Source of the DNA: a virus
Length of the DNA stretch: 40,296 nucleotides
IMG/VR virus record: IMGVR_UViG_3300038441_002094
Coordinates: 1 to 40,296 of that record
Strand: one strand, 5' to 3'
Both the position numbers and the translations under genes were made by a program. Shown here piece after piece: positions 1,799 to 37,274 of this stretch. How positions within the stretch are numbered: position 1 is the stretch's first letter; every line of letters starts with the position of its first letter. Under the pieces are notes generated by a model, which was not told the origin of the DNA, did not search any database, and saw only the letters and a list, made by a program, of their open reading frames with translations.

Positions 1799-2806
1799 TT
1801 ACTGCGCGAACGGGTTGTAGTCCGCCGGGGCGCCGCCACCCTGGGCCGGGGCCGCGGGCTGCTGGGCCCACTGCTGGGGCTGAGTCGGTGCCTGGGGAGC
1901 GAACTGCTGCTGACCCGGGTTCGGGTCCGCGTAGCCCTGGGTCGGCTGCTGGGGGGCGAACTGGGGTGCCGCGGCGGGCTGCTGCTGAGCCTGCCAAGCG
2001 GCCTGCTGCATCGCCGGAGTCGCGTACTGGGGGTCCATCCCCGTGGCGGCAACCGCCTGCTGACCGGGCTGTCCGGCCCACTGGGGCTGAGCGCCGGGCT
2101 GGGGGTAGCTCGGCTGGACCGGCGGGACGAACGCGGGCTCCGGCGCCTGCTGCTGGGGCGGCGGCGTGGGGGCGACGTAGGCGGGCATGTTGGCCAGCGG
2201 GTCGGGGCTGCCCGGCCGGGCGTACAGGCACTGGAAGCGGTTGCCCTTGCCATTGCGTCCCGCGTCCTGAGCGATCTTCGCCGCGTAGAAGTAGGCGCCG
2301 ATCTCCAGGTCCCTGGCACCGAGCGCGCGGAACGCCTCGGCCGCGGCCTTGACCATCTGGCCCTTGACGTAGATCGTGCGCTTGCCGTCGTCGTTGGCGT
2401 CGGTGCGCTCCCGCGTCTGCACGGTGACTTCGATCTGGGTCATCGGCTGGCGCTTCTCGGCGTCGAAGAACTTCGGCTGCTTGGTCTGCCAGTCCGTCTG
2501 CTGCGACGTCCGCTTGGCGATGATCAGCCCGCCGCGCGGGGTGCCGTTGACGTAGCCCTTTTTGTTGTCCCAGCTGATCGACGCGGGGCCGCCGAACAGG
2601 CCGGAGGTGTCCTCGTCGGGCATGGACTCGGCGCCGGGCTGGGGCGCCCACTGCTGCTGGGGGGCCGCGGGCTGCTGGCCGAACTGCGCCGGAGCCTGCT
2701 GCTGGGGCTGCGCCGGAGCGAAGGCCTGGGGGGCGGGCTGCTGGAGCTGGTTCGGGTAGGCCTGCTGGAGCGGCTGCTGTGCGTACTGCTGGGCCGGGAA
2801 GGTCAT
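1799..2806 (-). CDS. Putative single-stranded-DNA-binding protein with Q/P-rich tails
   Basis: 335 aa, ATG at 2806. A core of about 110 residues (roughly 75-190) carries GGLIIAKR, QTDWQTKQPKFF, MTQIEVTVQT and RTIYVKGQ, which looks like the strand pattern of phage OB-fold SSB proteins that sit beside Cas4-like nucleases in actinophages. It is flanked by long Gln/Pro/Ala-rich disordered arms (first ~60 and last ~130 residues). The extreme C-terminus, DYNPFAQ, is reminiscent of the bacterial SSB tip (acidic residues then PF) that recruits partner proteins, but two residues follow the PF. It has its own leader (2807-2978) and promoter motif, consistent with high expression. The SSB call rests on context and core pattern. 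Confidence 0.55.
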   Translation of the reverse strand: MTFPAQQYAQQPLQQAYPNQLQQPAPQAFAPAQPQQQAPAQFGQQPAAPQQQWAPQPGAESMPDEDTSGLFGGPASISWDNKKGYVNGTPRGGLIIAKRTSQQTDWQTKQPKFFDAEKRQPMTQIEVTVQTRERTDANDDGKRTIYVKGQMVKAAAEAFRALGARDLEIGAYFYAAKIAQDAGRNGKGNRFQCLYARPGSPDPLANMPAYVAPTPPPQQQAPEPAFVPPVQPSYPQPGAQPQWAGQPGQQAVAATGMDPQYATPAMQQAAWQAQQQPAAAPQFAPQQPTQGYADPNPGQQQFAPQAPTQPQQWAQQPAAPAQGGGAPADYNPFAQ

Positions 2807-2978: not shown

Positions 2979-2988
2979 ACACTACACC
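2979..2988 (-). promoter_or_regulatory. Promoter motif GGTGTAGTGT ahead of the SSB-like gene
   Basis: On the minus strand this reads GGTGTAGTGT, one of eight NGTGTARYST sites in the genome. The TAnnnT core (2984-2979) begins 8 bases past the Cas4-like stop and would give a leader of about 165 nt to the ATG at 2806. Confidence 0.55.
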
Positions 2989-4940: not shown

Positions 4941-6510
4941 TGATGGTCACACCCACCGATCGCAACGTTACACATGCCTGGCGCCACGTGAGTCGGTCGG
5001 ACAAGTCGCCGCGCCGGTCCTCCGGGAAGATCGGGCAGCCGATCGACCGAGCCTGGCGGACCTGTGCGTCGCTGATTTTTCCCTTGCGCCACACGGCATC
5101 CGACGCGGCATGGGTGTAGTCGTCGTCCACCGCGACGATGGACGCGTAGTTCAGCGCGTCCTCGGCGCTGACCCCCTGCCGCAACCAGCGGCCGGATCTG
5201 ATGTCGTTGATCGAACAGATCCCGACCGACCAGGTGTCGTCGACCGGGCACAGGAAGTACAGGTGCGATTTGGTGGCCACGAAGTTGACGCCGAGGTCAG
5301 TCGACTGCCACTGGGCCGGAGTGCCCGCGAACAGGTCGACGGGCTTGGTTCCCTTGACCAGCTTGAAAGTCAGCTCGTTGTCGCCGACCTCCAACGGGTC
5401 GCGCTCGTCCTCCAGCTCGTCGGCGTCCGGATCGTCCGGCATCGACTCGCGGAGGATGGCCTCCAGGTTCAGACTCATGCCCTCGGCGGCGCCGACGAAG
5501 TCGAGCACCAGCGCGTCGGACTTGCCCGGCCATGGGCGGAGCACACGGCCGACCTGCTGGATGTAAAGGCCCTTGTGCTTGGTCGGCCGTGCCATCAGCG
5601 CGACCGAGCACCACGGCGCGTCCCAGCCCTCGGCGAGCGCGGTGCACGTGGTCAGCACCGAGACCTGCCGCTTGCGGTAGGCATCGAAGATCAGCCGTCG
5701 GTCCCGCGGCGACGTGCCCGCGTAGATGCCCGCGGCCGAGATGCCCGCGGAGAGCAGCCCCTCCCGGAAGTACTCCGCGCTGGCGCGGGTCGGCGCGAAC
5801 AGCACGGCCGAGCGGCCCTCCCCATGCTCCAGGTACCCGCGGCTGATGTTGCTGCGCATCGCGTCGACGGACACCGCGGCTCCCAGGTCGGACTTCACGT
5901 AGTCGCCGCCACGGGTGCGCACGCCATCGAGCAGGTCTTCCGGCGCTCCGACCGAGACCCCACGCGGGGGAACGAGGAAGCCTTCCCGGATGGCCCAGCG
6001 GATCGAGCGCTGGAAGACGATCTTCTGCCACCGGTCCCCCAGCTCGCGCTTGTCCGACCGGGTCCACGTCGCGGTGAACCCGGCGAAGCGCGCGTTCGGG
6101 TAGCGCTCGAAGATCCTGTCGTAGGTCGGCGACATCGACACGTGCGCTTCGTCGACGATGACCAGGTCGGGCGGTCGCATGGCGTGCAGCCGCTTCGGGG
6201 AGCCGAGCGTGTGCACCGAGACGACGACGATGTTCGCCATCGTCACGTTGCGGTCGCCCTGGACCACGCCGACCGTGCGCCCTGGCGGGGCGTGCTCGCG
6301 CATCTTCGCCTCGGTCTGGATCACCAGCTGATCGCGGTGCAGCAGGATCCAGACATGCTGACCGGCCGCCGCGGTGCGCGCGGCCAGCTCGGTCATCACG
6401 TGCGTCTTGCCCGTGCCGGTCGGCAGGCCGATGCCCAGGCGCAGCAGACCATCGGACCAGCTCTTGTCCAGGCAGTCGATCGCGTCGCTCTGGTACCCGC
6501 GCAGACTCAC
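4933..6510 (-). CDS. Superfamily 2 DEAH-type DNA helicase
   Basis: 525 aa from the GTG at 6510, overlapping the methylase TGA (GTGA). Motifs in order: Q-like RGYQ (4-7), Walker A LPTGTGKT (29-36), HRDQL (58-62), DEAH (120-123), TAT (146-148), then in the second RecA-like domain TRASAEYF (~241), AGTSPRDR (~264), AEGWDAP (~293) and QQVGRVLRP (318-326). This is the RadD/SSL2/type III restriction-like branch of SF2, ATP-driven translocases that remodel branched or duplex DNA. The last ~190 residues have no motif I know and may give specificity. Position inside the operon with methylase, nuclease and SSB supports replication or recombination. Confidence 0.92.
   Translation of the reverse strand: MSLRGYQSDAIDCLDKSWSDGLLRLGIGLPTGTGKTHVMTELAARTAAAGQHVWILLHRDQLVIQTEAKMREHAPPGRTVGVVQGDRNVTMANIVVVSVHTLGSPKRLHAMRPPDLVIVDEAHVSMSPTYDRIFERYPNARFAGFTATWTRSDKRELGDRWQKIVFQRSIRWAIREGFLVPPRGVSVGAPEDLLDGVRTRGGDYVKSDLGAAVSVDAMRSNISRGYLEHGEGRSAVLFAPTRASAEYFREGLLSAGISAAGIYAGTSPRDRRLIFDAYRKRQVSVLTTCTALAEGWDAPWCSVALMARPTKHKGLYIQQVGRVLRPWPGKSDALVLDFVGAAEGMSLNLEAILRESMPDDPDADELEDERDPLEVGDNELTFKLVKGTKPVDLFAGTPAQWQSTDLGVNFVATKSHLYFLCPVDDTWSVGICSINDIRSGRWLRQGVSAEDALNYASIVAVDDDYTHAASDAVWRKGKISDAQVRQARSIGCPIFPEDRRGDLSDRLTWRQACVTLRSVGVTING
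4965..4974 (-). promoter_or_regulatory. Promoter motif TGTGTAACGT ahead of the zinc-finger/Cas4-like pair
   Basis: Minus strand TGTGTAACGT, identical over ten bases to the site at 8344-8353. It lies within the helicase 3' end and 25 bases before the ATG at 4940, giving a leader of about 18 nt. Confidence 0.5.
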
Positions 6511-7154
6511 CTCAACACCTCCAGCAGCGTTCGTCCGACATGCTCGGTGTAGGCGGGCGGGACCGCTTCGGACAGCTCGTTGCCGTTCATCCAGTCGATG
6601 CCCATCCCCTCGGGACCCATGTAGGTGCCGACGTCCCCGGTGATGGACGCGTTCCATCCCGCGTCCCAGCGTTCGCGACGGCGGGAGTTGGCCACACGAA
6701 CCGTGTGCCGGGGGTGATCCGGCGCGATCAGGGGCAGACCGGGTGACCCTTCGAACTTGCGGTGCCGGTACACCCTGAGCGGTTTGCCCGTCGGCCCGAG
6801 GAACATCGACCCACACAGCACGATCGGGTCGCGCAGCGGGGCCTCCATCACGTTCTCGATCACCCACGGCATGTCGTAGGTCAGGGCGAGTTCGCGCCCG
6901 GGGGTGACCAGGTCCGGCTTGTCCGACCACAGCGTGCCGCTCTTGAACCCCTGACACGGCCACGACATGTGGACCGCGTCGAAGCTCAGTACGTACTGCC
7001 GGTCACGGAGAACCTCCAGTCCGTCGTCCTGGAGGAACGCGAAGGGGTAGCGCGGCTGGGGGCTGACGTCCACGCCGACGACCTCGGAGAACCCGGCACG
7101 GTGGTAGCCCACACTGGCGCCACCAGCGCCGCACGCGATATCCAACAGCCTCAC
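6507..7154 (-). CDS. Compact DNA (cytosine-5) methyltransferase
   Basis: 215 aa from the GTG at 7154 (GTGA overlap with the upstream stop). It has SAM-binding motif I LLDIACGAGGASVGY (3-17), the catalytic-loop motif PCQ (66-68, nucleophile Cys67), ENV (100-102, motif VI), YRHRKFE (129-135, the QxRxR-like motif VIII) and a C-terminal VPPAYTEHVGRTLL resembling motif X. The order is that of DNA-C5 methylases but at about two thirds of their usual length, with a very short target-recognition region between motifs VIII and X. No partner restriction enzyme is nearby, so a protective orphan methylase that shields phage DNA from host restriction is the likeliest role; the target sequence is unknown. 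Confidence 0.88.
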   Translation of the reverse strand: MRLLDIACGAGGASVGYHRAGFSEVVGVDVSPQPRYPFAFLQDDGLEVLRDRQYVLSFDAVHMSWPCQGFKSGTLWSDKPDLVTPGRELALTYDMPWVIENVMEAPLRDPIVLCGSMFLGPTGKPLRVYRHRKFEGSPGLPLIAPDHPRHTVRVANSRRRERWDAGWNASITGDVGTYMGPEGMGIDWMNGNELSEAVPPAYTEHVGRTLLEVLR

Positions 7155-7426
7155 GCGGTCACCCGTTCCACGTAGACGGTCGGCGCCGAGGCGTTGAACG
7201 CTTCGTCCGCCTCGGCGAACAGCAGCGCGGTGTCGTAGCGCCGAATGAACGACGCGCACGCGTCATCCATCCAGCGGTAGCGCACCTTGTGGTGACGGCC
7301 GACGCGCTCGAACTCGGCGTCCTGGTGCCGCTCGTCGATCAGCAGCCTGGTCTCGTTGCCCAGGGCGAGCGCCGCCCCCGCCACGAGGGCGAGGACGGCG
7401 AGCACCTGGAGGTAGGTCGTGATCAC
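7151..7426 (-). CDS. Small membrane-anchored protein, unknown
   Basis: 91 aa from the GTG at 7426 (GTGA overlap with the gene upstream). Residues ~5-24 (YLQVLAVLALVAGAALALG) form one hydrophobic segment with no signal-peptidase site I would trust, so an N-in/C-out or N-out/C-in anchor is possible. The remaining ~65 residues are charged and soluble, with an Arg/His-rich centre (RVGRHHKVRYRW). No family recognised. It is coupled to the methylase gene. Confidence 0.7.
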   Translation of the reverse strand: MITTYLQVLAVLALVAGAALALGNETRLLIDERHQDAEFERVGRHHKVRYRWMDDACASFIRRYDTALLFAEADEAFNASAPTVYVERVTA

Positions 7427-8283
7427 TTCTGCCCCTTCTCGTCACGACGGATGGCGACCAGCGCGGCAAGGGACGTCGGCATCTTGGGAATCCGGCTGAA
7501 GGCGTCCATCGTGCGGATGAACGCGGCGCTCGGCGCCGTGATGATCTGGTCCTCGCTCAGCGACCGAGCCACCTTCGTGCCCCGGTCGTCGTGCGCCGTG
7601 ATCTTCTCGACGTAGGCGACGAACTGAGCGCCCGTGGTGACGCCGTAGCTGATCAGCGTGCGCACCAGGATCTCGATCTCCAGGCTGTCGCCGAGCAGCT
7701 CGGCGTCGACCTCGGCCTGCCGCGCCGGAGCGGTGTCGGCGTGGGCGCGCTCGTCCTGCTCGATCAGCGCGAGTCGGTGCGCGTTGCGCTTGTGCTCCAG
7801 GGTCAGCGCCCGCACCACGGACTGGTGCGTCTCCACGCCCGTCGCGATGATGTCGCCGAAGGGGGTCATCGCGGACCAGGTGCAGTCGGCGCCCTGGTAG
7901 ATCACGCCGAGGTCGATGGTGTGCCCGGTGACCGTGCGCACGCTGAGGTGCGACCCATGCTCGGACATCCGAGCCGCGAGGTCGTCGTGCGCCTTGTCAC
8001 ATCCGGGGCAGCTGTCGTGCTGGGTGTAGCCGTGTCGGCACAGCGCGGTGTAGCGACGGTCCAGGTTGGTCGCAAGCCGGTTGCTCCCGACGAACCGCGG
8101 CTTGCGATCGGCCGCGTCGTTCTCCCGGAGGTAGAACACACCGGTCACCCGGACGCCACTAACATACCGAGCGTCCCCGAGGATGATCATGCGCTGGGAC
8201 TCGATGTTGTCGTAGAGCATCGGGGCCTTGCCGCGGTAGACCTCACCAGCGGTCTTGATTGGCTCTACGGTGGTGTCGGACAC
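7423..8283 (-). CDS. Unknown protein, first gene of the leftward early operon
   Basis: 286 aa, GTG start at 8283 chosen because GGAGG sits five bases before it. I do not recognise the family. It has one CRHGYTQHDSCPGC segment (C-x11-C-x2-C with two His between), which could bind zinc, an N-terminal part rich in strands (RMIILGDARYVSGVRVTGVFYL) and a helical C-terminal half. As first gene after the promoter motif at 8344-8353 it is probably expressed early. Function unknown. Confidence 0.75.
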   Translation of the reverse strand: MSDTTVEPIKTAGEVYRGKAPMLYDNIESQRMIILGDARYVSGVRVTGVFYLRENDAADRKPRFVGSNRLATNLDRRYTALCRHGYTQHDSCPGCDKAHDDLAARMSEHGSHLSVRTVTGHTIDLGVIYQGADCTWSAMTPFGDIIATGVETHQSVVRALTLEHKRNAHRLALIEQDERAHADTAPARQAEVDAELLGDSLEIEILVRTLISYGVTTGAQFVAYVEKITAHDDRGTKVARSLSEDQIITAPSAAFIRTMDAFSRIPKMPTSLAALVAIRRDEKGQK

Positions 8284-8343
8284 TGGGGCCTCCAGGTGCT
8301 CGGTGTGTGGCTTACATCCGGTCTATCGGGTGGTGCACCGCGT

Positions 8344-8353
8344 ACGTTACACA
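8344..8353 (-). promoter_or_regulatory. Leftward promoter motif TGTGTAACGT for the early operon
   Basis: Minus strand TGTGTAACGT; the TAACGT core (8349-8344) is about 55 bases before the GTG at 8283. It is divergent from the rightward motif at 8377-8386, so the two upstream regions overlap. The 8-bp palindrome GGTGCACC (8332-8339) lies where this transcript would begin and could be an operator. Confidence 0.55.
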
Positions 8354-8376
8354 TCCTCACTCACTCGCACAAATCG

Positions 8377-8386
8377 CGTGTAGTGT
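8377..8386 (+). promoter_or_regulatory. Rightward promoter motif CGTGTAGTGT for the DNA polymerase gene
   Basis: TAGTGT (8381-8386) ends seven bases before the GTG at 8394, so transcription would start at or next to the start codon: a leaderless mRNA. No Shine-Dalgarno sequence lies before that GTG. Confidence 0.55.
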
Positions 8387-8393
8387 CCTGTTC

Positions 8394-10343
8394 GTGCGCA
8401 TCCTCACCCCCGCCCCGGACATCCGGCTGCTGACCGTGGAGTCCGACGCCGACCTGATCGATTTCGCCTGGTGGTTGGAGCAGCGCGCCGGGCACGTGCT
8501 CGGTGTCGACTGTGAGACCAACGCTCGGAATCCGTTCTCACCACGCTACCGACTCCGGACCGTCCAGGTGTCCGACGGCTGGGAATCCTGGGTGATCGAT
8601 GTCAGCCGCGTCGACCTCGGGAACCTGGCGTTCCTGCTGCGTCGACACGGCCTGTTCGTGGCGCACTACTCGGAGAACGAGGTGCGCTTCCTCGCCCGCG
8701 GGTGCCCCGGATCGGTGCGCCTGGACGACTACGCCAGCCCGCACATCGTCGACCTTCAGGTGGTGCTGGCCTGGTACGACCCGCGCACGGTCACCAGCCA
8801 CGACGACGCCTACGGGGGCATCCCGCTGCCCCGCGGCCTGAAGCCGACCGTCGAGCGGCTGATGCCCGGACAGCTGCTCACGTGGGCCGAGGACGTCATG
8901 CACGCCGAGTTCAAGCGGCTGGCGCCCAAGCACCTCCGGAAAGAGGACGAGTGGAAGGCCTGGGGCTTCGCGAACATCCCGTTCAGTGACGACCGGTACA
9001 TCCTGTACTCCGGGCTGGACGCGGTCTACACCGTACGGCTGTACCGAATGATGCTCATGTCCGTGCGCGAGCGAGGGCAGGGTGCCGGGCTCGCCGAGGA
9101 CCTGCTGTTGCAGTGGAACGTCGACCTCATGACCTACCAGGGCCTCGGCGTCGACGGCACATACGCCGCGTGGCTGGACAGGGAACTGGAGTCGGTCGTC
9201 GATCGGTACGCCGCTGGTCTGGCCTACTACGGGATCGGGCCCAGCGGGATGGGGCCCGCGGTCGGCCGCGCGCTGGAGGGTCTCGGCGCCGTGTCGTCGA
9301 AGTCCTCGTACAAGAGCGGCGAACCGAGCTGGGACAAGGACGTGCTGAAGGACCTCGCGCGGGAGGACGGACCGGTCGGCGACCTCGCCCGCGCGGTCAT
9401 CGCCGTGCGGAAGGCGGGCAAGTTCCGGTCCACGTACATCAAGCCGATGCTGGAGTGCCTGGCGTGGGACGGCCGGATCCACTGCTCGTTCCGGGCGTGC
9501 GGAACAATCACGTCTCGTAATTCCGCCATGCGTCCGCCGGTCCAGCAGCTGCCCAAAAAGGACACCCGCGTTCGAGCCGCGATCCGAGCGGCCGAGGGCC
9601 ACGTCCTGGTCGGGTGCGACCTGTCCCAGGGCGAGCCGCGCACGATGGCCGCGCTGTCGGGCGACCGCCACCTGCTCGCCGACATCCTCGCGGGCGACCT
9701 CAACAGCGCCATCGCGACGGCGGCGTTCGGCGACGCCTACGACCCCGCCTTCGGGCAGGACGCGGGGACCATCCACTACCTGATGCGCAACGGCGCGAAG
9801 GCGGGGTTCCTCGCCTGGTGCTACGGCGCGGGGGACAACAAGGTCGCCGACACCATCGGCATCGACCGCGGCCGCGGACCGGAGGTGACGGCCGGATGGC
9901 GCGCTCGCTACCCGGACCTCGCGCGCTACCGCGACGACCTCAACAGCCGCCGCGTGGTGGTGCTGGAGAACGGCTGGATCGCGCCGCTGTGGGACCGGGC
10001 CTTCCTGGACACCACGACCGGGCGCATCCTGGACAAGGGCAAGCCGTCCCGCAAGGGGCTGAACTACGCCACCCAGGGCAACCAGCGGCAGATTCTCGCC
10101 CGCGCCGTGCGCAAGCTCGTCACGTGGGGCTGGGGCTGGGCCCTGGTGATGCTCGTGCACGACGAGATCCTGCTGGAGGTGCCCGCGTGGATGGCCGAGC
10201 AGGCGAAGGCCGCGCTGGAGGCCGCGATGACGAGCGTGTTCCACGGGGTCCCGATCGACTGCCACGCCGACGTGCTCGGCACCACCTGGGCCGTGCAGCC
10301 CGAGGCCTTCGACCTACGCGAACTCGACGCGGTAGAACTGTGA
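8394..10343 (+). CDS. polA: Family A DNA polymerase with 3'-5' exonuclease domain
   Basis: 649 aa from GTG 8394. The exonuclease half has VDCETN (D39, E41), HYSENEVRFL and YSGLDAVYTVRLY, the DEDDy pattern, so proofreading is likely intact. The polymerase half has motif A CDLSQGEPR (D409), the O-helix RNGAKAGFLAWCYG (K469, L473, Y477) and motif C HDE (589-591). There is no N-terminal 5'-nuclease domain. Leu473 aligns with E. coli Phe762. The GTG start is preferred over upstream frames because the exonuclease domain begins ~37 residues in and because the promoter motif ends seven bases earlier. It acts as the phage replicative polymerase together with the prim-pol/helicase gene downstream. Confidence 0.95.
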   Translation: MRILTPAPDIRLLTVESDADLIDFAWWLEQRAGHVLGVDCETNARNPFSPRYRLRTVQVSDGWESWVIDVSRVDLGNLAFLLRRHGLFVAHYSENEVRFLARGCPGSVRLDDYASPHIVDLQVVLAWYDPRTVTSHDDAYGGIPLPRGLKPTVERLMPGQLLTWAEDVMHAEFKRLAPKHLRKEDEWKAWGFANIPFSDDRYILYSGLDAVYTVRLYRMMLMSVRERGQGAGLAEDLLLQWNVDLMTYQGLGVDGTYAAWLDRELESVVDRYAAGLAYYGIGPSGMGPAVGRALEGLGAVSSKSSYKSGEPSWDKDVLKDLAREDGPVGDLARAVIAVRKAGKFRSTYIKPMLECLAWDGRIHCSFRACGTITSRNSAMRPPVQQLPKKDTRVRAAIRAAEGHVLVGCDLSQGEPRTMAALSGDRHLLADILAGDLNSAIATAAFGDAYDPAFGQDAGTIHYLMRNGAKAGFLAWCYGAGDNKVADTIGIDRGRGPEVTAGWRARYPDLARYRDDLNSRRVVVLENGWIAPLWDRAFLDTTTGRILDKGKPSRKGLNYATQGNQRQILARAVRKLVTWGWGWALVMLVHDEILLEVPAWMAEQAKAALEAAMTSVFHGVPIDCHADVLGTTWAVQPEAFDLRELDAVEL

Positions 10344-10626: not shown

Positions 10627-10660
10627 CGGAACCCCCGGGCACGACACCCCGGGGGTTCCG
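10627..10660 (+). terminator. Strong hairpin terminator before the primase gene
   Basis: A perfect 13-bp stem (10627-10639 with 10648-10660; CGGAACCCCCGGG and its complement) around an 8-nt loop, 21 bases past the small gene and 20 before the primase start. There is no U-run, as is common for actinobacterial terminators. It likely reduces read-through from polymerase to primase. Confidence 0.75.
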
Positions 10661-12942: not shown

Positions 12943-12970
12943 ACCTGGGACATACCTGGGACATGGGACA
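12943..12970 (+). repeat. Left iteron cluster
   Basis: ACCTGGGACAT is repeated exactly in tandem (12943-12953, 12954-12964), followed directly by a third TGGGACA (12964-12970). Spacings are 11 and 7 bases. Confidence 0.9.
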
Positions 12971-13140
12971 CGGGCTGTCTCTTTCTGACTCTCTCGCGCT
13001 CTATCGCGATATATCGCTCAGGGTTGTGTGTACTGGTGAAATAGAATCTGAATCGATTAATACTAGGTAACCCTATATATTACGTAGCGTGACTTCAATA
13101 ACAGAGAGTGTTGGAGAGTGGTGGAGAGAGAGACAGCTAC

Positions 13141-13168
13141 TGTCCCATGTCCCATGTGTCCCATCCCA
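13141..13168 (-). repeat. Right iteron cluster, inverted relative to the left
   Basis: TGTCCCA at 13141-13147, 13148-13154 and 13157-13163, plus a partial TCCCA at 13164-13168. These are exact complements of the left heptamers. Spacings are 7 and 9 bases. Confidence 0.9.
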
Positions 13169-13229
13169 GGTTTTTAGTGACACTCGGTCACGGGATTACC
13201 TGGTGTCTTCGAGATCATGAAACGGTGCG

Positions 13230-21841: not shown

Positions 21842-22354
21842 GTGCCGCTCGTGACCACCGCTCAGGTGATGACGCTGATCGGCGCCGAGGTGACCGACCA
21901 GAACATCGCCGAGGCAGAAGCCGACGTCGACCGGATCGCGGGCATCGACTTGGACGACCCGGCCGTGGTCGACCAGCTCAAGCCGCGGGACCGCAAGTTG
22001 CTGCGTTGGGCCGTGATGTACCAGGCCGCGTGGCGGTCCACCCAGATCGACACGCACTCGCGGCTCGACGTGCTGGAGGTCAGCGGCAGCACCAGCGACG
22101 GGTCGATCAAGGCGCGCGACGAACTGACCCTCCAGCTGGCGCCGCTGTGCCGGTCCAACCTGGAGCGCATCAGCTGGAAGCGCCGCCGTACCACCCGGCT
22201 GGGCTCGACGCGATCCACCCGCCCGGCCGGACCCATCACCACGGCGGCCGACGTCACGATCCACACGGACCCCGTGGACACCTACGCGCAGTTGCCCAAC
22301 GCGCTCCGCGACGCGGGCCCCTGGGCCGAAGCACCCGATCGGCCGGTCCGGTGA
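21842..22354 (+). CDS. Head-tail connector (adaptor) protein
   Basis: 170 aa from GTG 21842, with GGAGG (21832-21836) placed correctly. The N-terminus (TTAQVMTLIGAEVTDQNIAEAEADVDRIAGID) followed by helices LRWAVMYQAAWRS is the usual pattern of gp6/gp15-like adaptors that bind the portal. It overlaps the next gene as GTGA. Confidence 0.72.
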   Translation: MPLVTTAQVMTLIGAEVTDQNIAEAEADVDRIAGIDLDDPAVVDQLKPRDRKLLRWAVMYQAAWRSTQIDTHSRLDVLEVSGSTSDGSIKARDELTLQLAPLCRSNLERISWKRRRTTRLGSTRSTRPAGPITTAADVTIHTDPVDTYAQLPNALRDAGPWAEAPDRPVR

Positions 22355-22689
22355 GCGCCTTCCTGCCGAACTGCCGAGTCACGATCCTGGACGCCGGCGC
22401 CGCCGTCGACGCCAACGGGGACGAGGTCGCCGACGGCGTGCCGGTCGCCGAGCACCTCCCCGCGTTCTGGGCCCAGAAGGATCAGCGCACCTACGACCCG
22501 GTGAGCGGAAGGCGCTCGATCATCCGCGGCTACCGGGTGCGGCTCCGGCCCGGCACGGTGGTGACCGAGGACCAGCGCATTCGGCGCGAGTCCGACGGGC
22601 TCACGGCCCAGGTGAACCAGGTGGACGAGCAGGCCACGCTGTCGGTCGCCGGGGACGTCGTCGTGCGCGCGATCGCGATCACCCGCTAG
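22351..22689 (+). CDS. Head-closure (stopper) protein
   Basis: 112 aa, GTG 22351 (GTGA overlap). A small beta-rich protein (YRVRLRPGTVVTEDQRI, VVVRAIAITR) of the size and position of SPP1 gp16/HK97 gp7-like stoppers. The call is mainly by synteny. Confidence 0.65.
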   Translation: MSAFLPNCRVTILDAGAAVDANGDEVADGVPVAEHLPAFWAQKDQRTYDPVSGRRSIIRGYRVRLRPGTVVTEDQRIRRESDGLTAQVNQVDEQATLSVAGDVVVRAIAITR

Positions 22690-22712
22690 AGGGCTGGATC
22701 TCCGAGTGCGGG

Positions 22713-22722
22713 TGTGTAGTGT
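22713..22722 (+). promoter_or_regulatory. Promoter motif TGTGTAGTGT for the moron-like gene
   Basis: A full NGTGTARYST match; TAGTGT (22717-22722) would give a ~40-nt leader with GGAGACCTG before ATG 22769. Confidence 0.6.
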
Positions 22723-22768
22723 GGGTTCCGGACAGACCCATGACCGCGGCCCGACCTCTGGAGACCTG

Positions 22769-23368
22769 ATGACCACTCGCGTTCTCAACCCCCACTCGTG
22801 CGACACGGGCGAGCTGCTGCGCATCGTGCACGGCGAGCCCGTCGTGCGCTGGGATGGCGACCGCACCGAGTACCCGACCACCTGGCGCCGCATCGACGTG
22901 GTGTCCTCGGACGACTACCTGCTGCCCGAGGGTCGGTTCGACGAGGAACTCTGGGTCAGCGCCAACGACGACGTCTGGCGCCGGCGCGTCATGCCGACCG
23001 CCTACCCGTGCGAGCCGGGATTCGAGCACCGGATTGGCACGCGGCAGCACGACGGCGCACAGGTGTGCTGGTACTGCGACCAGCCCGAAACCGCCCTGGA
23101 GCCCGTGGAGTTCTTCGTGCTCGTCAGCGCCGAGGGCTTCCCGGCCGACGGCTGTCGACCCCAGGAACGCGCGGAGGTCGAAGCGTTCGCAGGCGAGCTG
23201 ATGCGGGTCGGCAGCGTGGAAGCGCGCGAACGCGCGAAGGCCTCATCGCCGACCCCCGGCCCCGGTGGCGGGTGCATGGTCAACCCGTTCACGGTCGCGG
23301 TCATGGTGCTGGCCTGCCTGGTCGTCGGCGTCGCCGGGCGCATCCTGTTCCAGTTGCTGATGCGGTAG
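22769..23368 (+). CDS. Moron-like tail-anchored protein of unknown function
   Basis: 199 aa, ATG 22769 chosen for the GGAG just upstream; the longer in-frame start at 22706 would read through the promoter motif. The N-terminal ~145 residues are soluble (VVRWDGDRTEYPTTWRRIDV, YPCEPGFEHRIG, VCWYC, a possible C..H..C-x2-C metal site). After a GPGGG linker, residues ~172-197 (VNPFTVAVMVLACLVVGVAG and on) form one membrane helix at the very C-terminus. It interrupts the head-tail connector genes, with its own promoter motif before it and three hairpins after it. That arrangement suggests independent expression. A role at the host membrane (for example superinfection exclusion) is inference only. 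Confidence 0.75.
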   Translation: MTTRVLNPHSCDTGELLRIVHGEPVVRWDGDRTEYPTTWRRIDVVSSDDYLLPEGRFDEELWVSANDDVWRRRVMPTAYPCEPGFEHRIGTRQHDGAQVCWYCDQPETALEPVEFFVLVSAEGFPADGCRPQERAEVEAFAGELMRVGSVEARERAKASSPTPGPGGGCMVNPFTVAVMVLACLVVGVAGRILFQLLMR

Positions 23369-23378
23369 TCCACAAGCG

Positions 23379-23398
23379 CCATCCACACCTGTGGATGG
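23379..23398 (+). terminator. Hairpin 1 after the moron-like gene
   Basis: CCATCCACA (23379-23387) and TGTGGATGG (23390-23398), 9 bp with a 2-nt spacer (practically a loop of 4 after opening one pair), 11 bases past the stop. Confidence 0.6.
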
Positions 23399-23427
23399 CA
23401 ACACAGCCGAGCACCCCCCGACTCGGC

Positions 23428-23452
23428 GGCGGACCTGCTCCCCAGGTCCGCC
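23428..23452 (+). terminator. Hairpin 2 after the moron-like gene
   Basis: GGCGGACCTG (23428-23437) with CAGGTCCGCC (23443-23452), a perfect 10-bp stem with a CTCCC loop. This is the most terminator-like of the three. Confidence 0.65.
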
Positions 23453-23458
23453 AGTGCG

Positions 23459-23502
23459 CAACGGCCGTGCGATCCCGTAGTCTCGGAGTCGCACGGCCGT
23501 TG
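23459..23502 (+). terminator. Hairpin 3 with a -10-like box in its loop
   Basis: CAACGGCCGTGCGA (23459-23472) with TCGCACGGCCGTTG (23489-23502), a perfect 14-bp stem; the 16-nt loop contains TAGTCT (23478-23483). It could combine termination of the moron-like gene with restart of transcription for the tail genes (next start 23580). Confidence 0.6.
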
Positions 23503-23579
23503 TCGTGCCTGAGCAGCGGACACAGGGCCCGTAAACGGTCCGTCCCAGCTCGGCTCAGCCACCCGTAGAGGGGGTCGCG

Positions 23580-23915
23580 ATGTCGTCTGTCCGCATGGAA
23601 GTCGACGAGGGCGGTCTTGAGCACATCCGCCGCATCGCGACCCGCGTCCGGAACAACGCGCTCGACGACATGAAGCCCGACGCCGAGCGGTACGTACCTG
23701 TCGACGAGGGCGACCTGTTCCTGAGCATCGGCGTCGACCACGCCGCCGGCACCCTGCACGCGACCGCCCCCTACGCCGCCGCCGTCGAGAACGGCAGCGC
23801 GCCGCACGAGATCCCCAACGCCTGGGGCACGGGCCACTCGGTGACGCATCCCGGTGGACCGCCTCAGCCGTACCTCCGGCCCGCTGCCTACCAGCAACGC
23901 CCCTTGCGCGCATGA
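23580..23915 (+). CDS. Tail-completion protein, HK97 gp10-like
   Basis: 111 aa, ATG 23580 after GAGGGGG. It shows DDMKPDAERYVPVDEGDLFLSIGV, then ATAPYAAAVENGSAPHEI and PPQPYLRPA: the 'P.D.G.L..S...... Y....E.G.....PYLRPA' pattern of HK97 gp10/SPP1 gp17-type neck/tail-completion proteins. It overlaps the next ATG (ATGA). Confidence 0.85.
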   Translation: MSSVRMEVDEGGLEHIRRIATRVRNNALDDMKPDAERYVPVDEGDLFLSIGVDHAAGTLHATAPYAAAVENGSAPHEIPNAWGTGHSVTHPGGPPQPYLRPAAYQQRPLRA

Positions 23916-24394: not shown

Positions 24395-24943
24395 GTGAGC
24401 CGCAACCCGTTCGAGAAGAACGACTCCGTCCTGCCCGCGTCCGGCACGCTCAGCGCCGAGGACCAGGCCGAGTACAACCGGCTGGAGGCGCTGGAGGACG
24501 AGCGCCAGGGAGAGGCCGAGCAGGCGCACCCGGGGCAGCTGCCCGAGGTCGACGAATCGTCCTACGACGTCGACGCGGTCGCGCTCCAGGTCGACGACCG
24601 AGACCGCGACGTGCCCGCCGAGCTGGACCAGGGCGACGCCGAGGCCGAGCAGGCGTACCCGATCCAGAACGCGGCAGTGAAGTGGGATGACGCGGCCAAC
24701 GGCGGCGACACCAGCCGCGAAGCGACCGCCACCTACAACACCCCTTGGGGTCGGCGTGAGCTGTCGGCGCTGGAGGTGCGCGACCTGGAGCACCAGGGAC
24801 ACACCCTGCACCGCGTCGACGACGAGCCGAAGACCTCGCGCGAGGACGAGGACGCGGCGACCAGGGACGCCATCGTCGGCACCCCGCTGAAGCACTACGA
24901 CGACGAGGGCTTCGAGATCAACGCCAAGGGCCAGCGAGTCTGA
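24395..24943 (+). CDS. Acidic unknown protein before the major tail gene
   Basis: 182 aa from GTG 24395 with GGAGG at 24382-24386. Highly acidic and low in hydrophobics. A short internal repeat is visible (AEQAHPGQLPEVDESSYD and AEQAYPIQNAAVKWDD). The C-terminus GTPLKHYDDEGFEINAKGQRV is the best-structured part. Proteins here are often uncharacterised neck or tail assembly factors. No family recognised. Confidence 0.65.
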   Translation: MSRNPFEKNDSVLPASGTLSAEDQAEYNRLEALEDERQGEAEQAHPGQLPEVDESSYDVDAVALQVDDRDRDVPAELDQGDAEAEQAYPIQNAAVKWDDAANGGDTSREATATYNTPWGRRELSALEVRDLEHQGHTLHRVDDEPKTSREDEDAATRDAIVGTPLKHYDDEGFEINAKGQRV

Positions 24944-34554: not shown

Positions 34555-34591
34555 GAGAACCCCAGTCCGCGGAATTCGGACTGGGGTTCTC
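34555..34591. terminator. Bidirectional terminator between convergent operons
   Basis: Perfect 15-bp stem GAGAACCCCAGTCCG (34555-34569) with its complement (34577-34591) and a 7-nt loop. It lies six bases past the late operon stop and 36 bases past the end of the leftward glycosyltransferase gene, so it can stop transcription from both sides. Confidence 0.92.
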
Positions 34592-35656: not shown

Positions 35657-36366
35657 CACGGGCGCTGTCCCCATTTCTTGACGAACGTCGCCATGTCCTT
35701 GTCGGCCTGTTCGCGCAACGCGCCCGTGGTCGACTCGTCCGGGTGCTTGTGCATCAGACCGGCGACACGGTGAGCGGGCAGGTCGACGCCGACCGTGCCG
35801 CGCCCGTTGCGCACTGCCTGTGCCTGAAGGTCATCGTCTCCGCACCACCAACGCAGCGACTCGTCGGCACGGAGACCGGACGTCCCACGCACCACGAAGC
35901 ACCATCCGGTCAGCCGGCGACCGACACCGGGAAACGGGTCGCTGTCGTTGACGAAGCACTTGCCCTGCCCGTGGGACACGTGGGGGAACGCGATGTCCGA
36001 CTGGTGGTTGTCCAGCTCGCACGCCAGAATCTCAAGCAGTCCGGGCGGCAACACCACGTCGTCGTTCAGGATCGCGACGGCGTACTCAGGCCGTGGCTCA
36101 AGCGTCGGGTTGCGCCAGCCCGGATCGTGGTTGGACCGCGTGTGTGCCCAGTCGAGTCCGATGTTCCACAACCGCGACAGGTTCGGTGGCTGCTCCTCGT
36201 CGCGGTGCACCTGAACGTTCAGGCCCACGATGTCCTGGTTGAGCATCACCGGCGGTTCACTGGCATTGTCGATCACCAGGACTTCGATGCTGTCGGGGAT
36301 CGTGTCGAGCAGCGCGGCGAGGTCGTCGGGCCGGTTGTGCGTCGGGATGACGGCGTAATGCTTCAC
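35653..36366 (-). CDS. GT2-like glycosyltransferase
   Basis: 237 aa from GTG 36366 (GTGA overlap). It begins KHYAVIPTHNRPDDLAALLD, then VLVIDNAS (the strand 2 DNAS motif), NLSRLWNIGLDWA and ILNDDVVLPPGLLEILA (metal-binding N-D-D, 101-103), and ends with WWCGDDDLQAQAVRNG. A typical GT-A fold of the GT2 superfamily; the donor sugar is unknown. It groups with the methyltransferase and other glycosyltransferases of this operon. Confidence 0.87.
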   Translation of the reverse strand: MKHYAVIPTHNRPDDLAALLDTIPDSIEVLVIDNASEPPVMLNQDIVGLNVQVHRDEEQPPNLSRLWNIGLDWAHTRSNHDPGWRNPTLEPRPEYAVAILNDDVVLPPGLLEILACELDNHQSDIAFPHVSHGQGKCFVNDSDPFPGVGRRLTGWCFVVRGTSGLRADESLRWWCGDDDLQAQAVRNGRGTVGVDLPAHRVAGLMHKHPDESTTGALREQADKDMATFVKKWGQRPW

Positions 36367-36587
36367 TGGGTGGCTCCGGTGCACAGGATCTCGGCGACGC
36401 GGAGCGACTCACCCTGAATCGTGGAGGTCAGCACACAGTCGTTGAAGCGCACCTCACGCTCGTGCTTCGCCTGCTCGGCGGTCTGCACCAGTGTGTAGAT
36501 CACCCACAGGGTGAGGCCGGTCAACACCAACGCGCACGCGATCAGCAGCGCCTTCGGGTCGATCCTCTTGCGAGCCGCGGGAACCAT
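36363..36587 (-). CDS. Small membrane protein
   Basis: 74 aa, ATG 36587 with GGAGA just before. Positive N-terminus (ARKRIDPK), one membrane helix (ALLIACALVLTGLTLWVIYTL) and a charged C-terminal half with two Cys. Orientation N-in by the positive-inside rule. No family recognised. Confidence 0.7.
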   Translation of the reverse strand: MVPAARKRIDPKALLIACALVLTGLTLWVIYTLVQTAEQAKHEREVRFNDCVLTSTIQGESLRVAEILCTGATQ

Positions 36588-36593
36588 GGTCTC

Positions 36594-37220
36594 CTACTTC
36601 CTGAACCAGGCGTACACGTCGCCCGGGTTGGGGTTGACGGTCATCTCGGCACGGCGACCCTGGTCGTCGTCGACCGTGAGTTCCACCAGCTGCTGGCTGA
36701 TCTCGATGTCGCGATCGACGAGCTTCACCAGGTGTGCGGCGAACTCGTCGACGACGATGTTCGCGTAGTGCTCGCCGTTGGGCACGTCCAGCTCTCCGCG
36801 GGCGCCGTGCGGCCGACGGGCCCACGTCCGGGTGTCGGTCGCGGCGAAGGTGAAGAATGCGAAGCCGCCGGGCGCGAGCACGGTCCAGGCGTTGTCGAGC
36901 ACGCCGCGCCAGTCGGCCACGTGCTCCAGCACCTCGGTGCACAGCACGACGTCGAACAGCTCGTGGTAGGCGGACATCGCGGTCGCGTCCGTGGCGTCGA
37001 CGACCAGGTCGACGTCGTCGCCCTCGGCGATGTCCAGGCCGTACCAACCGCCGACGAACGGAATCAACTCGCGAGCCGAGCCGTTGACGTCGGCACCGCC
37101 GATGTCCAGCCCCAGGCGTTCACCGACGAGCTTCGAACGCCGACCGTCCGGCAGCGACGCATTGATGTAACCCGACACGTTCACCATGCGGCGCACGGCT
37201 TCCAGCGCTTCCGCGTGCAT
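36594..37220 (-). CDS. SAM-dependent methyltransferase (class I)
   Basis: 208 aa, ATG 37220 with GAGGGAG upstream. It has WYGLDIAEGDDVDLVVDATD (motif I/II region), FDVVLCTEVLEHVADW (post-I/motif II), and LAPGGFAFFTFAATDTRTW (motif III), as in the Methyltransf_11 group. A small-molecule, glycan or protein target is likelier than DNA (no DPPY or PCQ). Grouping with three glycosyltransferases suggests that it methylates a sugar or glycosylated product. Confidence 0.85.
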   Translation of the reverse strand: MHAEALEAVRRMVNVSGYINASLPDGRRSKLVGERLGLDIGGADVNGSARELIPFVGGWYGLDIAEGDDVDLVVDATDATAMSAYHELFDVVLCTEVLEHVADWRGVLDNAWTVLAPGGFAFFTFAATDTRTWARRPHGARGELDVPNGEHYANIVVDEFAAHLVKLVDRDIEISQQLVELTVDDDQGRRAEMTVNPNPGDVYAWFRK

Positions 37221-37236
37221 CTCACTCCCTCATGAC

Positions 37237-37267
37237 TGTGGGGGCCGAGTTGTCCCCGACCCCCACA
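37237..37267 (-). terminator. Hairpin between lysis and glycan-modification genes
   Basis: TGTGGGGG (37237-37244) and CCCCCACA (37260-37267) around a 15-nt loop, 23 bases past the holin-like stop. It overlaps the promoter motif at 37265-37274, so termination and re-initiation are placed together. Confidence 0.55.
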
Positions 37268-37274
37268 CTACACG
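37265..37274 (-). promoter_or_regulatory. Promoter motif CGTGTAGTGT for the methyltransferase/GT2 operon
   Basis: Minus strand CGTGTAGTGT, identical to the polymerase site at 8377-8386. TAGTGT (37270-37265) would give a ~38-nt leader to ATG 37220 with a good ribosome-binding site. Confidence 0.6.

Follow-up and report, generated by a model that had tools for sequence, protein, structure and literature searches.

Between the head-to-tail stopper and tail-completion genes of an actinobacterial siphovirus lies a single gene, encoding a 199-amino-acid (aa) protein, with a repeated promoter-like motif in front of it and a cluster of hairpins behind it. The gene is probably a moron, i.e., a single-gene unit with its own promoter and 3′ hairpins whose product would be tail-anchored and would work at the host membrane, not as part of the virion. 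A sequence-only reading had recognized the layout of a moron here, and that layout is borne out: the insertion separates two genes that are near-adjacent in 84 of 86 other loci, the motif is common to non-virion genes, and the hairpin cluster is strong. As phage accessory genes go, the insert is of an ordinary kind; its product is an orphan.

The phage and the stopper/tail-completion junction

The window, by which we mean the whole stretch of DNA analyzed (40,296 bases; IMG/VR virus record IMGVR_UViG_3300038441_002094, positions 1 to 40,296), has a GC content of 68.7%. Judged from the terminase, its nearest annotated relatives belong to the PHTowN/Gibson group of Streptomyces phages or are Microbacterium phages such as OscarSo (45–50% identity), and no nucleotide-level match to the window was found among 50,697 phage records. 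A leftward arm carries the exonuclease and helicase genes, the DNA polymerase and primase genes run rightward, the head-tail cluster, also rightward, spans roughly 15.5–34.5 kb, and a further leftward arm holds glycosyltransferase and methyltransferase genes. Since neither an integrase (PF00589) nor a resolvase (PF00239) was found in the window, a record that may be a fragment, a lysogenic role or lysogenic expression of the 199-aa protein is not indicated, and nothing here provides a basis for a prophage-expression scenario. Elsewhere in the window, a small HTH/excisionase-like gene is preceded by an AT-rich intergenic stretch (12950–13200) whose GC falls as low as 0.43, against 69% for the genome; the stretch is a possible origin or control region. 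Two more small proteins with one N-terminal membrane helix each and no convincing family match are encoded in the non-virion arms, at 36363–36587 (-) and 7151–7426 (-).

The features at the junction are as follows:

22351–22689 (+): head-to-tail stopper gene, left edge of the insertion
22713–22722 (+): promoter-like motif TGTGTAGTGT, with the -10-like TAGTGT at 22717–22722
22714–22734 (+): extended element GTGTAGTGTNNGTTCCGGACA, common to the copy at 2987 (-)
22769–23368 (+): inserted gene, 199-aa orphan protein with a CxxC/His cluster and a predicted C-terminal membrane helix
23378–23399 (+): hairpin 1, perfect, 10 bp (2-nt loop) or 9 bp (4-nt loop)
23406–23427 (+): weaker hairpin, stem GCCGAG/CTCGGC, loop containing CCCCCC (C-run 23414–23419)
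23428–23452 (+): hairpin 2, perfect, 10 bp
23459–23502 (+): hairpin 3, 14 bp perfect, 19-nt arms 89% paired
23580–23915 (+): tail-completion (Neck1) gene, right edge of the insertion

Relatives were collected through the terminase, portal, major capsid, tail terminator, and major tail proteins (190 loci). These loci, together with annotated phages, were searched with profiles derived from the connector proteins of the window itself. The stopper protein has no library match. Its iterated profile, which matched 115 loci, picks out the stoppers annotated in Microbacterium phages OscarSo and Isperia and in Streptomyces phage KimJongPhill, and the ends found agree with the annotation. The tail-completion protein matches PHROG_5 (E 1.9e-9), and its profile matches 121 loci. 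Besides the window, both proteins were found in 86 distinct phage or prophage loci. The estimated distance from the stopper end to the tail-completion start is 15–178 nt in 84 of these, compared with 912 nt in the window; the estimates are about 30 nt too high, judged from annotated gaps, which are 40–50 nt in OscarSo, Isperia, and KimJongPhill. The small gap in nearly all loci indicates that the junction is normally closed, in agreement with the earlier statement that the two genes are usually adjacent.

The 199-aa gene is absent from the 86 related loci. Conservation at this locus in all relatives, named beforehand as an argument against a moron, was thus not found among relatives that are distant (about 25–50% protein identity). 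Contigs of closer relatives stop before the junction [L003, portal 69%; L009, TerL 74% and MuF 77%; L101, major capsid protein (MCP) 76% and MuF 80%], and because these relatives of 60–80% identity end short of it, a recent gain of the gene is not supported.

Two other junctions are occupied, and the three inserts, that of the window included, are mutually unrelated. L102 (IMGVR_UViG_2515154087_000002) carries a 519-aa protein with a C-terminal GDSL lipase domain (PF13472) at 7954–9513, followed at 9539–9581 by a perfect 17-bp hairpin and a T-run; this gene and its hairpin are a second moron-like unit at the same junction. In L132, a 403-aa reverse-strand ORF [5361–6572 (-)] occupies the junction and, from a C-terminal four-cysteine motif judged by eye, can be read as TnpB-like. 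The usually tight junction accepts foreign genes, with three of 87 distinct loci occupied by unrelated inserts, two of which have strong hairpins after them. Another gene without any match, encoding 182 aa (24395–24943), sits between the tail terminator and major tail protein genes, an interval with additional sequence in many relatives too.

A candidate target-site duplication, CACCCG(C)TAGAGGG, flanks the insert in nearly identical copies at 22680–22693 and 23560–23572. It was rejected as not significant because the match is equalled or exceeded by 212 of 19,914 random pairs of 45-mers (about 1%), as well as in two of the 259 other gene-end/gene-start pairs. The two copies fall at the stop codon of the stopper gene and at the ribosome-binding site of the tail-completion gene.

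The inserted gene and its putative flanking signals

The frame of ORF 22769–23368 scores +0.37 bits per codon (the two remaining forward frames score -0.83 and -0.88), and its GC by codon position is 0.70/0.48/0.91. Codon usage and GC by codon position thus mark the frame as coding. An alternative in-frame GTG at 22706 would place the promoter-like motif within the gene; the ATG at 22769 is preferred, since the 21 codons added do not look coding (GC3 0.67, P about 0.006; codon score -0.22). The GC content of the gene is 0.700, within the range of its neighbors (0.665–0.726), and it lacks the compositional difference that is a usual, albeit not obligatory, moron trait.

The protein has a single C-terminal hydrophobic segment (hydropathy peak from residue 176), and the single-sequence AlphaFold model (mean pLDDT 46.7) is confident in helix 173–198 alone. 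Codon scoring, hydropathy, and the AlphaFold helix agree with the earlier description of a Cys/His-containing protein with one C-terminal membrane helix, encoded between the stopper and tail-completion genes. The Cys and His residues (C81, H87, H94, C100, and C103) are compatible with a zinc knuckle that may bind zinc, and the single hydrophobic helix suggests a tail-anchored topology in which the soluble part would be cytoplasmic.

Homologues of the 199-aa protein were found neither in Pfam, PHROGs, NCBIfam, PADLOC, or the PDB, nor by tblastn in phages and plasmids, by an IMG/VR pattern scan, or among about 1,390 actinobacterial genomes. The best genome match (L191, E 2.5e-5) was rejected as chance: C81, C100, and C103 are all lost, and the alignment crosses a stop and then enters an ORF that reads like an acetyltransferase. 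A match in L106 was rejected as a low-complexity stretch.

The presence of a motif of its own upstream of the inserted gene, as previously proposed, was confirmed by repeat count. The 9-mer GTGTAGTGT has four copies in the window, compared with 0.09 expected from the dinucleotide content, and every TAGTGT of the window belongs to one of them. Each copy is located upstream of a gene start. Three precede non-virion genes, the fourth precedes the 199-aa gene, and none precedes another virion gene. The three other copies are:

2979–2987 (-): GTGTAGTGT part of the second extended-element copy, upstream of a gene of unknown function, 1799–2806 (-)
8378–8386 (+): DNA polymerase gene, whose in-frame GTG (8394) follows after 7 nt, a leaderless spacing
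37265–37273 (-): about 45 nt upstream of the methyltransferase gene, 36594–37220 (-)

The fixed positions of GTGTAGTGTNNGTTCCGGACA are fully matched (18 of 18) at exactly two sites in the window, 22714 (+) and 2987 (-), and the extended motif had no match in IMG/VR. No sigma-70 consensus pair was found at the inserted gene. TAGTGT fits the Streptomyces -10 consensus TANNNT, and leaderless arrangements are frequent in Streptomyces (PMC6742748); the DNA polymerase gene, with its GTG start 7 nt past the -10-like TAGTGT (window 8378–8394), is apparently leaderless. Given the fit to the -10 consensus and the copies before the polymerase, methyltransferase, and unknown genes and before no other virion gene, the 199-aa gene would likely be expressed together with early or replication-type genes, with the motif as a putative promoter. 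The motif GTGTAGTGT(NN)GTTCCGGACA is a phage promoter-like motif that is open to direct testing.

Downstream of the gene, the three perfect hairpins previously described (9, 10, and 14 bp) were recovered by a fold/stem scan, with hairpin 1 being 9–10 bp, and the weaker hairpin belongs to the MFE structure. The 211-nt intergenic region between the inserted and tail-completion genes folds with -123.8 kcal/mol, compared with -84.4 ± 4.7 for shuffled sequences (z -8.4), an excess that is due to the hairpins at 23378, 23406, 23428, and 23459. Perfect stems of at least 10 bp number six in the window, compared with 0.9 per Markov-shuffled sequence. Among the 86 other junctions, a perfect stem of at least 9 bp occurs in two, the occupied L102 and the empty L164. 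Other strong perfect hairpins (13 and 15 bp) lie at 10627–10660 and 34555–34591, directly past the polymerase region and the tail-fibre gene, respectively, and likely mark operon ends.

None of the three perfect hairpins is followed by a T-run, and a consensus terminator scan listed no terminator at the cluster. In Streptomyces lividans, U-rich ends make up just 194 of the 1,640 transcript ends (PMC6742748), and the missing T-tract therefore neither helps nor hurts a terminator reading much. That the cluster serves as the terminator of the inserted gene is plausible. If so, late transcripts must read through the hairpins or restart to supply the tail proteins, and how late transcription gets past the hairpins becomes a concrete question. 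No promoter was found for the downstream tail genes.

Weighing the possible roles

We favor the following scenario. A single-gene transcription unit would have been inserted at the stopper/tail-completion junction of the late operon of an actinobacterial siphovirus, bringing its own -10-type promoter, of a kind also found before one unknown gene and the genes for DNA polymerase and methyltransferase; the 3′ hairpin cluster would end or protect its transcript. The product would be tail-anchored, with a probably zinc-binding cytoplasmic part and a single C-terminal helix that sits in the host membrane. Given the putative separate expression, the accessory distribution, and the predicted membrane anchor, the protein most likely works in the infected cell at the membrane, in host takeover or in the exclusion of other phages, and not in the virion. 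Several observations weigh against a moron: the base composition is like that of the neighboring genes, the hairpins lack a T-tract, no homologue supports any function, and terminators at this position would keep late transcription from reaching the tail genes, for which no promoter was found, unless they are read through.

The gene sits among virion genes and shares their strand and composition, which would also fit a minor virion or connector protein particular to this phage lineage and expressed from the late operon, with the motif and hairpins merely tuning its level. Inserts at this junction may be structural, as the N-terminal part of the 519-aa GDSL-esterase protein of L102 is tail-like by eye. 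However, the promoter class is common to the polymerase, the methyltransferase, and another non-virion gene, the protein has a predicted membrane anchor, and the gene is missing from the 86 related loci; we consider a virion role unlikely. Less likely still is a structured RNA as the main product, a 6C-like small RNA whose C-rich loops would pair with ribosome-binding sites. The fold z of -8.4, one CCCCCC loop and one CTCCC loop, and 6C RNA (RF01066) as the top Rfam match speak for it, but the 6C match reaches 27.1 bits, below the gathering cut-off of 47 (E 0.07–0.3), so that 6C identity was rejected; the C6 loop differs from the loop aligned by the 6C model, and no relative carries the hairpin element. 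An RNA as main product is accordingly highly improbable.

As to what a moron product would do, the sequence-only reading had suggested superinfection exclusion or defence, a suggestion that gained no direct support, as no homologue was found in any library. An exclusion or anti-phage protein acting from the cytoplasmic membrane is a more specific version of the moron interpretation, and the single predicted membrane anchor, the putative separate expression, and the accessory distribution are in keeping with it, as are the membrane-borne exclusion systems carried by actinobacteriophages (PMC7542560). On the other hand, the protein matches no defence family in PADLOC, Pfam, NCBIfam, or PHROGs, the membrane partners in the known actinophage systems compared are 4-pass proteins (PMC7542560), and the lack of an integrase in the window gives no indication of lysogenic expression. 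We regard this version as one with a small share of the probability. Equally tentative is the idea that the orphan is the first of a new family of tail-anchored, zinc-binding proteins with early action at the host membrane, encoded in a junction slot that different actinophages fill with unrelated cargo.

Comparison with known systems

The moron concept comes from the lambdoid phages HK97 and HK022 (Juhala 2000; Hendrix 2000, as described in PMC3029335). Like those morons, the insert is a lone reading frame, flanked by promoter-like and terminator-like sequences, between genes that are contiguous in related phages. Unlike them, it shows no compositional difference, and its terminator-like hairpins are without T-runs. 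The prophage defence genes gp30/gp31 of Butters and of Sbash are likewise actinophage accessory genes with a membrane component; in contrast to the window gene, they form two-gene systems with 4-pass membrane proteins and are lysogen-expressed (PMC7542560), and the homologue searches made found no sequence relation to the 199-aa protein.

A precedent is the oriR/ORF 8–10 segment of SPP1, in which moron genes bracketed by transcription signals also break the order of late-region virion genes. That segment, however, lies in the portal/capsid region and comprises three genes and an origin, with unrelated proteins (PMC6316719). The GDSL-esterase insert of L102 differs in its unrelated protein (PF13472) and its canonical terminator with a T-run, and it shares with the window gene the junction itself, the single-gene arrangement, the strand, and a hairpin after the gene.
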